This document shows, piece after piece, positions 4,913-23,640 of a stretch of 64,000 nucleotides of DNA. The stretch covers positions 1-64,000 of the forward strand of contig NZ_ABCK01000007.1 in NCBI RefSeq assembly GCF_000170755.1, read 5' to 3'. Each line of letters starts with the position of its first letter. Position 1 is the first letter of the stretch. A program made the translations under genes and the position numbers. Origin of the DNA: Lentisphaera araneosa HTCC2155. Lineage in GTDB: Bacteria > Verrucomicrobiota > Lentisphaeria > Lentisphaerales > Lentisphaeraceae. The notes under the pieces are model-generated. The model was not told where the DNA came from, made no database searches, and saw nothing but the letters and a program-made list of their open reading frames with translations.

Positions 4913-4974
4913 GAGTCCGGCTCATTTTTAATGATAAAGTTTCACCACAGAGGACTCCGAGAACACAGAGTTAA

Positions 4975-5047
4975 TCATATCTATTAATTCACACTTCATT
5001 TATTAAGCTATGAATAGAAACTCTTTTGAAATAGAAATAATTATTCT
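4975..5047. repeat. 73-bp direct repeat, copy 1
   Basis: Matches 5164-5236 at 69 of 73 positions (four substitutions, no gaps), offset 189 bp. Copy 2 covers the stop codon and region just downstream of the minus-strand hydrolase gene, so this copy looks like a duplicated 3' end of that locus. Confidence 0.95.
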
Positions 5048-5163
5048 AAAGCAGGGCAAAGCCACTTAGTCGCCTGGTCAAGGATTGGCAAATCCTTGCT
5101 GGGAGAGCTCGAGAGGGTCAGCGTCCTTCTCTTATGGGTCGCATCATGCACTCTAATGGTTAT

Positions 5164-5236
5164 TCATATTTATTAATTCACACTTCATTTATTAAGCTAT
5201 GATTAGAAGCTCTTTTGAAATAGAAATAGTTATTCT
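5164..5236. repeat. 73-bp direct repeat, copy 2 (overlaps the hydrolase 3' end)
   Basis: Second copy of the repeat at 4975-5047. Its last seven bases fall inside the coding end of the hydrolase; the rest is its 3' flank. Confidence 0.95.
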
Positions 5237-6000
5237 ATGAGAAAAAAATCCTTAATGGCTTTTTTGTATTCTTGACGCTCGGAGAGGTCGTTGTGACCCG
5301 CATTCTTAATAACTTCGACTTGGGGTTTTACTTTTGCGAAAGCCGCAATCAACTTTTGGGAATTTGCCATGGGGATGACTTCGTCATTATAAGCTAAGAG
5401 AATCAAGGTGGGAACAGGAAGTACAGGAACTCGATCAATTGACCTATACTTCTCTGTCAGTACCACTGACATGGGGTAAATTGGGAAACGTTTTTGCGCC
5501 ACACTCTGTATGCTATCATAAGGCGTGATCAGAACCATTTTATCAACGGGTCGCTGACTTGCCAGGTAAACGGCGACTCCCGTACCCAAACTACGCCCCA
5601 CGAGACTGATGTGATCATATCGAATTTTCAGTTCATCATAGAGCTTAAGAGCATCGGCAAAAATAGCTTTTTGTGATGGTTTTCCCGTACTCGAACCATA
5701 ACCGCGATATTGCATGAGGTACAAACTGCGATCTTCGCAAAGCTCAGCTATTTGGGGAGCTGAATACACCACATTTTCGCCATTGCCCCCAAAGTAAATA
5801 ACCGCTTGCGATTGCCCCTCCTCAATTTTTAAAACGGAGATCTTCTCTCCCTCACTTTCCAAAACTAAAACGGGGTACTGATGCTCAATATTTTTCACCG
5901 GATAATAAACCAAACTGGTCTGCACGGCATAAAGCACTAAGCCCAAAGCAAGATAGAGCCCCACATAGACTCCCAGCCTTATCTTTATCGCTTTTTTCAT
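5230..6000 (-). CDS. Membrane-anchored alpha/beta hydrolase (BEM46/ABHD13-like)
   Basis: A 256-residue serine hydrolase anchored by one N-terminal membrane helix (about residues 8-27), with the catalytic domain probably outside the cytoplasm. The catalytic triad can be read: nucleophile Ser in VGRSLGTG (GxSxG), Asp in AYNDEVIP, His in NAGHNDL. The oxyanion segment YFGGNGENV and the motif QYRGYGSSTGKPSQ are characteristic of the BEM46/YfhR group of alpha/beta hydrolases, whose natural substrates are mostly unknown. The start has a GTGGTGA-like ribosome site upstream. It is transcribed divergently from the next gene and its 3' end lies in a 73-bp duplicated repeat. Confidence 0.88.
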   Translation of the reverse strand: MKKAIKIRLGVYVGLYLALGLVLYAVQTSLVYYPVKNIEHQYPVLVLESEGEKISVLKIEEGQSQAVIYFGGNGENVVYSAPQIAELCEDRSLYLMQYRGYGSSTGKPSQKAIFADALKLYDELKIRYDHISLVGRSLGTGVAVYLASQRPVDKMVLITPYDSIQSVAQKRFPIYPMSVVLTEKYRSIDRVPVLPVPTLILLAYNDEVIPMANSQKLIAAFAKVKPQVEVIKNAGHNDLSERQEYKKAIKDFFLIE

Positions 6001-11198: not shown

Positions 11199-11230
11199 GC
11201 CTGTTTTTTAATTTTCTCGGAAATAAATTT

Positions 11231-19205: not shown

Positions 19206-21653
19206 TTAATAGGGCTTTATATCCCATATTTCTTCTGCGTATTGTTTAATTGTTCGGTCGGATGAAAAGCCGCCCATATTTGCAATGTTGAGAATAGCAC
19301 GTTTTGCCCAATCGTCTTCCTTAATGAAATCATTAGACACAAGTTCTTGAGCATCAGAATAACTTTCAAAATCCGCCGCCAATTTATAGTGATCACCACC
19401 TATGGTGAGTGAATCAACTAATGGACGGAACAGCTCGGGGTCTTCTGGGCAGAAAAAGCCAGAAGAAATCAAGTCGAGTGCATTCGCTAAATGAGAACCG
19501 TGTGGCATGTAGTCGTGAGGATTATAACCGTTTTGGTTAAGGTTTGTCACGCCATCAACATCGAGACCAAAAATATAAATATTATCGTCGCCAACAGCGT
19601 CTTTAATTTCCACGTTTGCACCATCCAAAGTACCGATAGTTAAAGCACCATTGAGGGCAAACTTCATATTGCCTGTTCCCGAAGCTTCTTTACCTGCAGT
19701 AGAGATTTGCTCGGAGAGGTCAGTGGCTGGAACGAGAACTTCTGCCATACTCACGCTGTAGTTGGGAAGGAAAAGGACTTTGAGAAACTTATTCACTTCT
19801 GGATCATTGTTGACGATTGCCGAAACTGAGTTCACCATCTTGATGATGAGCTTCGCCATGTAGTAACCCGGAGCCGCTTTACCGGCAACGATAATTGTAC
19901 GTGGCGTGTAGTGCCCCTTGGGGTTCGCTTTAATCTTCTGATACAAATGAATCGCATGGAGAATATTGAGCAGCTGACGCTTGTATTCGTGAAGGCGTTT
20001 CACTTGTATATCAAAGATTGAATTGACATCAAGTTCGTCACCCGTGAGGTCCTTTACGTATTCAGCTAAGCGCGTTTTGTTATTCTTTTTGATTTTAGAA
20101 ATTTCCTTGCGGAAAACTTTATCTTCTGCAAAAGGAATGAGTTTTTGTAACTCGTCGAGATCAGTGACCCATTTGTCGCCAATTTTGGAAGTGATGAGTT
20201 CAGAGAGTTCAGGATTACACTTCCTCAACCAGCGGCGAGGTGTAATACCATTGGTCTTGTTGTTGAATTTTTTTGGATAGAGATCGTAGAAATCTCTGAC
20301 CAAATCATGCTTCAAAAGTTCTGTGTGCATCGCGGCCACACCATTAACTGAAAAACTACCGACAATCGCGAGGTAAGCCATGCGAACCATTTTCTCGCCA
20401 CCCTCTTGGATGATCGACATATCGCACTGACGCTCATTATCACCTGGGTATTTTTGCGCCACTTCACGCAAGAAGTGATAGTTGATCTCATAGATGATCT
20501 GCATGTGACGTGGAAGTAAGTTTTCGATTAAACCCACGGGCCATTTCTCTAATGCTTCTGCAAGTAAAGTGTGATTTGTGTAGGCAAAAACTTGTCGAGT
20601 GATGTTCCAAGCTTCATCCCAAGTGAGGCCTTCGTCATCCATGAGAATACGCATCAGCTCTGGTACGGCAATTGCGGGGTGAGTGTCATTGAGTTGGCAG
20701 ACGACTTTTTTTGGTAAGTCAGAAATTGGTAAGCCAAGATCTTTGAAGTCCTCAATCATATCGGCAAGTGTTGCCGCTGCAAGAAAGTACTGCTGCTTCA
20801 AGCGCAGTTCTTTACCTTCGTAATTATTATCGTTGGGATAAAGAACTTTTGTAATATTTTCTGTGAGCGATTTTTGGATGTTGGCGTTAATGAAGTCGCC
20901 TTGGTTGAAATCAGTGAGGTTAAAACCAAAGATCGAACGCGCTGACCAAAGGCGAAGTGTATTGACTGTGCCCATGGAGAATCCTGGAATTGGCGTATCG
21001 TAAGGCATCGCAAGAACATCTTCGGTATCCACCCAAGTGCACCATTGCTTACCGTCGTGATCTTTGTAACACTCCACATGTCCGTAAAACTTGATAACGC
21101 GCTTGCGTTCCGGGCGAACCACTTCCCAAGGATTACCAAAACGTAACCAGTTATCGGGCTCTTCAACTTGATGACCATGATCGATTTTTTGACGGAAGAT
21201 CCCATAATCATAACGAATACCTGAACCGAAGCCTGGTAAATCTAAGCTTGCAATTGAGTCGAGGAAACAAGCGGCTAAACGACCCAAACCCCCATTGCCA
21301 AGTCCCGCATCCATCTCTTCATCGAGAAGGTCTTCGAGCTCAACACCTAATTCTTTGAGCGCTGTATCGGCCTGATCAAAAAAACCACAGTTAATCAAGC
21401 TATTACCTAGCGTACGACCCATGAGAAACTCTAGGGAGATGTAATACATTCTCTTGGGAGCGTCTTTGCTCGCCAATTTTTGATTCGTTGTTTTCCACGC
21501 TTCGACCTGAAGGTCACGCACTGTGTAGGCCAAAGCCATGTAAAGGTCGTGCTTATTGCATTCTGACAAATCTTTTGCCAAAGTCATATCCACACGCTTT
21601 TGAAAAGCTTCTTTGAACTTTTTGACGGCAGTTTTTGTTACTTTGCTAGCCAT
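19206..21653 (-). CDS. glgP: Glycogen/starch phosphorylase
   Basis: An 815-residue GT35 phosphorylase, typical length. It releases glucose 1-phosphate from alpha-1,4-glucan using pyridoxal phosphate. Family motifs: YISLEFLMGRTLGNSL, GNGGLGRLAACFLDS, CQLNDTHPAIAVPELMR, TNHTLLAEALEKWP, NGVAAMHTELLK, KTNGITPRRWL, DIQVKRLHEYKRQLLN and the PLP-lysine region EASGTGNMKFALNGALT, with TLDGANVEI. The N-terminal regulatory segments of animal enzymes are absent. It leads an operon with nadA. The upstream 190 bases hold no other gene and should contain its promoter. Confidence 0.96.
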   Translation of the reverse strand: MASKVTKTAVKKFKEAFQKRVDMTLAKDLSECNKHDLYMALAYTVRDLQVEAWKTTNQKLASKDAPKRMYYISLEFLMGRTLGNSLINCGFFDQADTALKELGVELEDLLDEEMDAGLGNGGLGRLAACFLDSIASLDLPGFGSGIRYDYGIFRQKIDHGHQVEEPDNWLRFGNPWEVVRPERKRVIKFYGHVECYKDHDGKQWCTWVDTEDVLAMPYDTPIPGFSMGTVNTLRLWSARSIFGFNLTDFNQGDFINANIQKSLTENITKVLYPNDNNYEGKELRLKQQYFLAAATLADMIEDFKDLGLPISDLPKKVVCQLNDTHPAIAVPELMRILMDDEGLTWDEAWNITRQVFAYTNHTLLAEALEKWPVGLIENLLPRHMQIIYEINYHFLREVAQKYPGDNERQCDMSIIQEGGEKMVRMAYLAIVGSFSVNGVAAMHTELLKHDLVRDFYDLYPKKFNNKTNGITPRRWLRKCNPELSELITSKIGDKWVTDLDELQKLIPFAEDKVFRKEISKIKKNNKTRLAEYVKDLTGDELDVNSIFDIQVKRLHEYKRQLLNILHAIHLYQKIKANPKGHYTPRTIIVAGKAAPGYYMAKLIIKMVNSVSAIVNNDPEVNKFLKVLFLPNYSVSMAEVLVPATDLSEQISTAGKEASGTGNMKFALNGALTIGTLDGANVEIKDAVGDDNIYIFGLDVDGVTNLNQNGYNPHDYMPHGSHLANALDLISSGFFCPEDPELFRPLVDSLTIGGDHYKLAADFESYSDAQELVSNDFIKEDDWAKRAILNIANMGGFSSDRTIKQYAEEIWDIKPY

Positions 21654-21852
21654 AATCAGGTATCCTCAATCTTTTGTGTAATTTTTACCGACTTAAAGAT
21701 AGAAGACTCTGAAAATAAATTCAAAACTCAGAGGCTTTCCTGTGACACTGAAATGAGTTAATTTATGGTAAAGTTATGGTTGCGCTACACTTTTAATTCA
21801 CTCTCAAGCTCACTGTAGATCTAGCCAACTTCACGCTGCCTATATACTTAAC

Positions 21853-22665
21853 TTACCCCGATTCAACCTGCTTCACTCTACTCCAGGAAGCATGTCTTTG
21901 TAACAACGCATCTAAAACACTGCGATTAAGCTTGGCAAAACTACCAAACTCTCTGATTGCCTCACAGACGAGTTTTAATCGTTTTGAGTAAAGCGCAAAA
22001 ACCTGAGCGTCACTCTTCGTTTCCATACCTCCATTAAATAGACGGATACAATGAATGATATTTTTTTTGATTCTCTTTCCCAATGAAACTTTTTTCAAAA
22101 GGTCTGACCAAGAGGTGAACTGATAATGTTGAGGTGAGCTAACCATTTGTGCTCGAACTGCATTCATCTCGACATACTGCATACATTGAATAAGTACCTT
22201 CGTGTCCTTTAATTGAATAGATCTGAAATTATGGTTAAAGAGTTGTCCTCTACGGGCATTATCACCCTGCCGATTATACCAACGAGTGAAACGTTTTTGC
22301 ACGTTGCCAATGAAATCACTTAAATTATTTAAACGGTTTTTGAATTTGCGGATTTCGCAACTGCGCGCATCTAAAGCGTATTTTCTGCCTCGATATTTTT
22401 GCTCTCTTATGGCAACTTCTCTTAGGCTTAAATTAGCTAGAGCATTTTTCTCATGACAAATTATAAAATGAGCATGGGTACTCATTATTGTGTAGCAAAG
22501 ACACTTGAGTTCATAAATATCTTCGAGCCAAAAAAACAGATCTTTCAATCGGCTCTTATGATTTTCGTCAAAGGCATATTCTTTATTCCCGTAAGTATTA
22601 TCGGGAACTTTAATAATGATATGATAAAAACTGACTTCACTTTTAGTATCTAAATAACGTTTCAT
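21853..22665 (-). CDS. RAYT-type (Y1, IS200-like) transposase
   Basis: A 270-residue REP-associated tyrosine transposase. The HUH metal motif is STHAHFI with His64 and His66; the single catalytic tyrosine is probably Tyr130 in RFTRWYNRQ; the downstream motif YVEMNAVRAQMV matches the Y[VI]xxNPVRA block of this family. AGGAG precedes the ATG. RAYTs are usually single-copy, do not form IS elements with terminal repeats, and act on short palindromic REP sequences. No IS-like ends are seen around it. The 20-bp palindromic motif at 4823 and 4893 is a possible but unproven substrate. Confidence 0.9.
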   Translation of the reverse strand: MKRYLDTKSEVSFYHIIIKVPDNTYGNKEYAFDENHKSRLKDLFFWLEDIYELKCLCYTIMSTHAHFIICHEKNALANLSLREVAIREQKYRGRKYALDARSCEIRKFKNRLNNLSDFIGNVQKRFTRWYNRQGDNARRGQLFNHNFRSIQLKDTKVLIQCMQYVEMNAVRAQMVSSPQHYQFTSWSDLLKKVSLGKRIKKNIIHCIRLFNGGMETKSDAQVFALYSKRLKLVCEAIREFGSFAKLNRSVLDALLQRHASWSRVKQVESG

Positions 22666-22809
22666 TTGAGGTCTCCTTTCTTCTACGTAAATAAATACTT
22701 AAAGCTTTTCAAGCACAAGTTATCTGCATAAAATAACCATATAAATAATTCTTAACCACTTCACTTAAAATATATTACAAAATTTTTATAGTTTTCTGGG
22801 AAAATTGAA

Positions 22810-22987
22810 GAAGTACTTTATAAAGAGGGGGTGTGCTAAAAGTATGGGCCGTTTGAGGCAAGTGAACTTTATAACAATGAAGTGCCTGGCGTTGATGGGC
22901 TGTACAGGGTGGATCGCAATACCATTCTTCACCAACGAAGTACTTTATAAAGAGACTTAGAAAGAAGTACTTTATAAAGAGACTTAG
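22810..22987. repeat. Three copies of an 18-24 bp repeat around a duplicated gene fragment
   Basis: GAAGTACTTTATAAAGAG occurs at 22810, 22937 and 22964; the last two copies share a further six bases (ACTTAG). The third overlaps the stop codon of the pseudouridine synthase gene. They bracket the duplicated fragment at 22835-22933, so the whole block looks like a local duplication at the 3' end of that gene. Confidence 0.95.
22835..22933 (-). pseudogene. Partial duplicate of the pseudouridine synthase 3' region
   Basis: These 99 bases are identical to 23047-23145 (offset 212), internal to the intact gene next door. The fragment has neither start nor active-site region and cannot make the enzyme. 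The absence of any substitution points to a recent event or gene conversion. The rest of the 22666-22983 gap shows no gene. Confidence 0.9.
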
Positions 22988-23640
22988 AGGTATTGACTCA
23001 AGCCGTGATTTTGTGCCAATTGCTTTAAATCTTCGGCTAAGGGTGAGCTAAAAGTATGGGCCGTTTGAGGCAAGTGAACTTTATAACAATGAAGTGCCTG
23101 GCGTTGATGGGCTGTACAGGGTGGATCGCAATACCATTCTTCACCTACAAGTGGATGACCTAAATGACTTAGGTGAATGCGGATTTGATGGGTCCGACCT
23201 GTAAAGATCTTGACTTTAATGAGACTAAAATCCTTAACACTTCCTATAACTTCAAAATGACTATGAGCAGTTTTGCCTTCGGCATGTATGCCTAAACTGC
23301 GAGCATCTACCTTTCCAATACGCCCATGCTCTTCGCATTGCTTCCAGCTGGGAACGCCGTGAACAATTGCCAAATATTGTTTATCCGCTTGCGCTTGCTC
23401 TAGCAGTTCTTTGTAATATTTAACGAGTTTCTTTTCCGTGACAAACAAGTTAATACCACTAGTATCCGCATCGAGTTGATGAACGGCCCAAACCATGGCT
23501 CCCTGACGCTGTATGAGCCAATATTGGAGACAATCATCATCGTCTAATTTTCTCCCTGTAGACGGGAGGTCATAGGGTTTATTAAGAACTAATAGACCAT
23601 CTTTTTCATAGATAATACGCTTCTCTAGGTCAGCTATCAT
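22984..23640 (-). CDS. RluA-family RNA pseudouridine synthase
   Basis: A 218-residue catalytic-domain-only enzyme. The active-site motif VHQLDADTSGINLFV carries the catalytic Asp; the usual Arg of HRLD is Gln here, seen in several divergent members. FTGRTHQIRIHLSHLGHPLVG is the RluA C-terminal signature. No S4 domain is present. It isomerises uridines in rRNA or tRNA; the target cannot be told. It lies 15 bases downstream of the globin gene, in line with the DNA repair genes upstream. A 99-bp piece of it is duplicated just past its stop codon. Confidence 0.88.
   Translation of the reverse strand: MIADLEKRIIYEKDGLLVLNKPYDLPSTGRKLDDDDCLQYWLIQRQGAMVWAVHQLDADTSGINLFVTEKKLVKYYKELLEQAQADKQYLAIVHGVPSWKQCEEHGRIGKVDARSLGIHAEGKTAHSHFEVIGSVKDFSLIKVKIFTGRTHQIRIHLSHLGHPLVGEEWYCDPPCTAHQRQALHCYKVHLPQTAHTFSSPLAEDLKQLAQNHGLSQYL

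Follow-up and report, generated by a model that had tools for sequence, protein, structure and literature searches.

The spacer downstream of an RluA-type pseudouridine synthase gene in Lentisphaera araneosa HTCC2155 contains a direct copy of part of that gene's tail, set among three copies of an 18-nt sequence, and this arrangement probably arose, in this lineage, by a templated duplication next to the boundary of a Y1 transposase unit that has been inserted there. The structure, seen at a single locus in a single assembly, is real in that assembly and is specific to this lineage. It lies in the window, the 64-kb stretch of DNA analysed here, which comprises the opening 64 kb of contig C7 in a draft genome of 6,023,180 bases in 81 contigs (G000 below), all of which was scanned for the 18-mer. 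On the minus strand the genes run in the order globin, RluA-type pseudouridine synthase, repeat region, Y1 transposase, and an 815-aa gene (19206-21653) that we take to encode glycogen phosphorylase. The features are as follows.

22984-23640, minus strand: RluA-type pseudouridine synthase gene, open, 218 aa (ORF; PF00849 profile, 80.9 bits)
23041-23148, minus strand: S, the source stretch within the pseudouridine synthase gene (repeat comparison)
22964-22981, no strand assigned: Ra, the R copy adjoining the stop codon (pattern search)
22937-22954, no strand assigned: Rb, the second R copy, joined to S' (pattern search)
22934-22960 and 22961-22987 (together 22934-22987), no strand assigned: two 27-nt tandem units carrying Rb and Ra, 96% alike, with the stop codon at 22984-22986 included
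22829-22936, minus strand: S', the copy beyond the stop codon, 98% identical to S over 108 nt and exact at 22835-22933
22810-22827, no strand assigned: R0, the R copy lying beyond S', adjoining the transposase unit (pattern search)
22784-22803, minus strand: likely left end of the transposase unit, TTTCCCAGAAAACTATAAAA, common to paralogues
21853-22665, minus strand: Y1 (HUH) transposase gene, a divergent RAYT relative, 270 aa (ORF and profile searches)
21764-22983, no strand assigned: stretch that neither sister spacer clearly matches, homology resuming at about 21764, past the transposase gene

Anatomy of the repeat region

The identity of 22835-22933 with 23047-23145, reported in the original prediction, is confirmed as 99 nt exact, a sequence that occurs twice in the 64-kb window and that meets a mismatch if extended by one base at either end; with mismatches allowed, the repeat grows to 22829-22936 and 23041-23148 (108 nt). 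The same prediction placed the duplication inside the gene, which is wrong, because the gene is on the minus strand at 22984-23640 and one copy therefore lies 3' of its stop codon, leaving only the copy at 23041-23148 inside. Missing from S' are the final 57 nt of the gene, including the stop codon. A protein-coding role for S' was considered and rejected, as it falls in no ORF of at least 60 aa and, being offset from S by 212 nt, does not keep the gene's reading frame; S' looks to be without function.

The 18-mer R, GAAGTACTTTATAAAGAG, has exactly three exact occurrences in the 6.02-Mb draft genome, all at this locus. They stand as had been described, once before the copy and twice after it, with the last at the stop codon, which lies inside the 27-nt unit; read along the minus strand from the stop codon, the order is Ra, Rb, S', R0, transposase unit. 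A search for the repeat elsewhere had also been proposed, and no exact copy of R is present in the genome outside the locus. When up to two mismatches are allowed, R finds one further match in the genome (with two mismatches), the same number as a reversed control pattern, and GTACTTTATAAAGAG finds 4 matches in the window against 0.24 expected, a count that none of 100 shuffles reached. A second match to the 371-nt repeat region was sought across its own genome and none was found. A dispersed origin of R was rejected on the three exact copies, all here, and on the lack of a second genome match for the 371-nt region. The only palindrome that R holds is CTTTATAAAG, and the R/left-end and S' stretches fold no more stably than shuffles (z -0.24, -0.56 and +1.02).

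On the minus strand, all three R copies break at GTACTTC, Rb at once and Ra and R0 after an extra TT. The sequences that follow GTACTTC in the three copies are GTTGG, TTTCTAAG and TTCAATTTTCCC: at the Rb joint GTACTTC passes into GTTGGTGAAG, the beginning of S', and Ra and R0 part company after their common TT (TTTCTAAG and TTCAATTTTCCC). The opposite ends of the R copies also differ, with CTAAGT preceding R in Ra and Rb and not in R0. That the breakpoint is fixed on just one side suggests a 3' end restarting from R, and this breakpoint lies six bases before the likely left end of the transposase unit. Judged by eye only, the bases that match at the joints are ACTT and CT/CC.

The transposase gene and its probable left end

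The start of the transposase gene is 145 nt from the nearest R, in agreement with the original prediction of a RAYT gene about 150 bp further on. The RAYT label itself holds loosely, in that the gene is a Y1/RAYT relative, but its scores are below the curated cut-offs of both families (45.6 bits against 80 for NCBIfam REP_Tyr_transpos, 20.4 bits against 23 for Pfam Y1_Tnp). Its translation includes THAHF and QYVEMNAVRA, which we take to be the putative HUH motif and catalytic tyrosine motif. The transposase is made more relevant to the repeats by two observations, namely that both sister genomes lack it at this position and that R is six bases from its likely left end.

That left end is placed at TTTCCCAGAAAA, which stands six bases past R0. 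The sequence CCCAGAAAA precedes the start codon by 135 nt here and by 138 nt in paralogues on C11 and C6, with exact or near copies also found elsewhere on C6, some in tandem. In the sister genome G002, three near-identical related transposase units start sharply at the corresponding place within three different flanks, and carry a different hairpin sequence. It is the common position in the paralogues, together with the sharp starts of the G002 units, that leads us to read TTTCCCAGAAAA as the left end. The left-end stem in the window is weak, at -1.5 kcal/mol, and no stronger than that of shuffles (z -0.24).

Related units were seen in several arrangements. At G002:C2:1419408-1426076, three of them lie in direct orientation within 6.7 kb, with sharp left boundaries; two are 99.6% alike over 948 nt, and in one a 16-nt piece of its left end is repeated. 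At G000:C6:139481-139940, a 126-nt unit is present three times, starting near the left-end-like TTTCTCAGAAAACTAAAAAA and containing, by eye, a hairpin of the GAAAAAGTA/TACTTTTTTC type; it may represent a short, non-autonomous element related to the transposase unit. A left-end-like sequence with two mismatches is also found on the minus strand of the window at 11204-11223, a match that may be due to chance because the reversed control pattern also matched.

Comparison with sister genomes

Two genomes of the same genus, those of L. marina (G001) and G002, were compared at the corresponding spacer, which measures 218 nt and 217 nt from the stop codon to the next start. Neither spacer has R, S' or a transposase gene. 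S, on the other hand, is conserved in both sister genes (80/99 and 77/99 nt identical), and for this reason S is regarded as the source and S' as the derived copy. Inheritance of the duplication from the genus was considered and rejected, since the two sister spacers lack it. With R, the copy and the transposase gene all missing from both, the copy, the triplication of R and the transposase gene are taken together as one lineage-specific change; parsimony among three genomes would assign the gain to this lineage, the alternative being loss in both sisters. S and S' differ at 0 of 99 positions, compared with 19 and 22 of 99 between S and its sister counterparts, and by these counts S' appears to be either young or homogenised. 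The 3' flank of the gene has been rewritten, as the original prediction had it: the protein is 218 aa long, six residues shorter than the 224 aa found in both sister species.

Local repeats near Y1 genes

Local repeat clusters, defined as direct repeats of at least 40 nt and at least 90% identity within 1.5 kb, were counted around Y1 genes in two sets. In the first (1.246 Mb), a cluster was present within 1 kb of 13 of 15 Y1 genes, against 11.7% expected for a random position (binomial 7e-11), on contigs that had been chosen for carrying such genes and that included some of the loci that had prompted the idea. Because the idea of an enrichment arose from some of those loci, the second set of 29 genes is the more independent. 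It left out short or fragmentary matches and matches on other contigs, and showed a cluster within 1 kb of 15/29 Y1 genes, compared with 7.7% for positions more than 3.5 kb away on the same tiles. By genome, the counts were 10/18 in G002, 1/5 in L. marina, which has few such genes, and 4/6 among further genes of G000. The background was 14 more distant clusters across 449,763 bases, and the G000 control tiles held 4 clusters in 240 kb.

Most of this signal resembles known REP arrays: 10 of the 13 Y1-linked clusters in the first set recur elsewhere in the 1.25 Mb scanned. The first set contained 49 local repeat clusters in all, 36 of them outside the 13 linked to Y1 genes. No cluster lies within 1 kb of the nearest paralogue (on C11), and short repeats directly upstream were present at 4 of 11 loci of this transposase group (the window not included) against 20 of 131 overlapping intergenic windows, which is no clear excess. 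Across the phylum, a local repeat cluster was found at 14/29 RAYT loci (L211-L239, the best RAYT locus per genome, with the window genome's own locus left out) and at 0/30 PF00849 loci, a count that is kept out of the specific claim because many of the pairs flank the gene on both sides, like known REP structures.

Among nine Y1 loci examined, only the present one has copies inside and outside a gene shown to be conserved, and at C14:60025 the repeats overlap a 117-aa ORF of unassessed conservation; the idea that all Y1-linked repeats are gene-fragment copies was rejected after this examination. Across the 1.63 Mb scanned, repeat pairs (at least 50 nt, at least 90% identity, no more than 1.5 kb apart) with one member in an ORF of 100 aa or longer and its partner outside were found at five places: this locus, with 2 blast hits, and four repeat arrays, each row of which had 4 to 36 hits. 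The gene-fragment copy is thus a single case in 1.63 Mb.

Two further rearrangements were encountered. At G002:C1:288450-289770, a related transposase gene is broken by a stop codon, and a truncated copy of the gene's own 5' end (219 nt, 99.5%) lies 580 nt upstream; short repeats lie nested in a mosaic around GTCTGAGACGCG and, by eye, often break after GTCTGAG. At 4970-5237 of the window, a 79-nt direct repeat (4970-5048 and 5159-5237) flanks some 110 nt of dispersed repeat (5049-5158). With a 286-nt query covering this scar, 42 genome matches were obtained, the query's own among them; the scar is the sole framed case among nine places checked for its dispersed repeat, and no listed Y1 gene lies within 3 kb of it.

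Origin of the duplication

The inserted S' is a direct-orientation copy of nearby DNA that both sister spacers lack, and the locus is most likely the scar of serial template switching. A 3' end would have halted at R (GTACTTC), slipped back 27 nt and recopied R and the stop codon, producing the 27-nt tandem repeat. Next, using a few matching bases (ACTT), it would have primed again inside the gene, about 185 nt upstream, and synthesised S' from 108 nt of the gene tail; a forward jump onto R (CTCTTTATAAAG) would then have joined it back to the transposase unit. The product would be no different had a tandem duplication been followed by a deletion within one of the copies. The original prediction had proposed either route, template switching or duplication with partial deletion, and is borne out in part: both fit the anatomy, and the 3' flank is indeed rewritten.

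There is an even chance that plain polymerase slippage or template switching was at work with the transposase uninvolved, the two merely sharing a spacer tolerant of change. In favour of this are the scar at 4970-5237, a comparable structure with its direct repeat around a dispersed repeat and no listed Y1 gene nearby, and the 36 clusters outside the 13 linked to Y1 genes; arguing against it are the breakpoint common to the R copies, six bases away from where the unit probably begins, and the excess of local repeats around Y1 genes. The position of S' between Rb and R0, and the palindrome in R, could also mean that a staggered break spanning the near-palindromic R received S' as a fragment, leaving R on both sides like a target-site duplication, with the 27-nt repeat arising later. 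This is quite improbable, since S' has no ends of its own and derives from the adjoining gene, the region has no second genome match, and IS200/IS605 elements are described as making no larger target-site duplications (PMC2817692).

An artefact of assembly, which a draft in 81 contigs invites, is very unlikely on the argument that the copy edges differ, that S' lacks part of the gene end and that the three joints are unlike one another, whereas a misjoined or over-expanded repeat would more simply yield clean tandem copies. That R is a REP-like repeat belonging to the transposase is also very improbable: RAYT genes are often flanked by their own REP repeats (PMC6006769, PMC3733652), but R has no exact copy elsewhere in the genome and, by eye, no R-like sequence is found at the left ends of the paralogues.

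If the locus is a templated duplication, a nick by the Y1 transposase is a plausible, if somewhat doubtful, source of the free 3' end. TnpA-REP proteins are described as making single-strand cuts at C|T beside hairpins, leaving a 3'-OH that might prime replication (PMC8266576). The shared breakpoint near the left end, the enrichment of repeats at Y1 genes and the self-copy of a transposase gene in G002 are points for such a trigger; the recurring clusters (10/13), the gene-fragment copy being a single case, the C11 paralogue with no cluster, the short upstream repeats in no clear excess, the 1/5 count in L. marina, the weak stem and the scar at 4970-5237 are points against it. A broader proposal is that Lentisphaera Y1/RAYT-type transposases act as local mutagens, in which a left-end nick would free a 3' end that re-primes nearby and copies pieces of a neighbouring gene, or of the transposase's own gene (G002:C1:288450-289770), into the flank. 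This is unlikely, and if true would offer a physical route to tandem REP clusters that carry flanking DNA.

Relation to known systems

Template-switch or microhomology-mediated local duplications are characterised by short-range direct copies, serial joints and a few matching bases at the joints. The locus has the first two of these features, the matching bases being judged by eye, and nothing in it conflicts, its only special point being the common breakpoint beside a transposase unit. It resembles a transposon target-site duplication in having an insert between two direct repeats (R), and differs in that the insert is a copy of a neighbouring gene, not a transposon, and that R is present a third time. 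With the TnpA-REP/RAYT system of E. coli and its relatives (PMC8266576) it shares a Y1-type family, a C|T at the breakpoint of two of the three R copies and a hairpin-like sequence nearby; here, however, the scores are below curated cut-offs, the stem is weak, and no GTAG-tagged REP was recognised.

A further likeness is to the tandem REP/REPIN (BIME) clusters near RAYT genes (PMC3116915, PMC3733652, PMC2817692), which likewise consist of direct, local, serial copies, flanking DNA included, next to a gene of the Y1/RAYT type. Such inclusion of flanking sequence in tandem REP clusters has been described (PMC3116915, PMC3733652); a RAYT-catalysed reaction has been proposed as the driver of these clusters (PMC2817692), and a second mechanism, not identified there, has been suggested for ordered clusters (PMC3116915). 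R itself, unlike a REP or REPIN, is not dispersed and has no stable palindromic stem, its stretches folding no better than shuffles. Among the literature searched, no report was recognised of copied gene fragments next to a RAYT gene. Should the transposase have made the break, the locus would show how a RAYT-linked repeat cluster might grow, and take up its flank, in the absence of the usual high-copy palindromes; if it did not, the locus is an ordinary but well-resolved templated duplication. The locus is a further instance of the known REP-cluster neighbourhood, from which it differs in that part of a host gene and an 18-mer unique to the locus, rather than a dispersed palindrome, have been copied.
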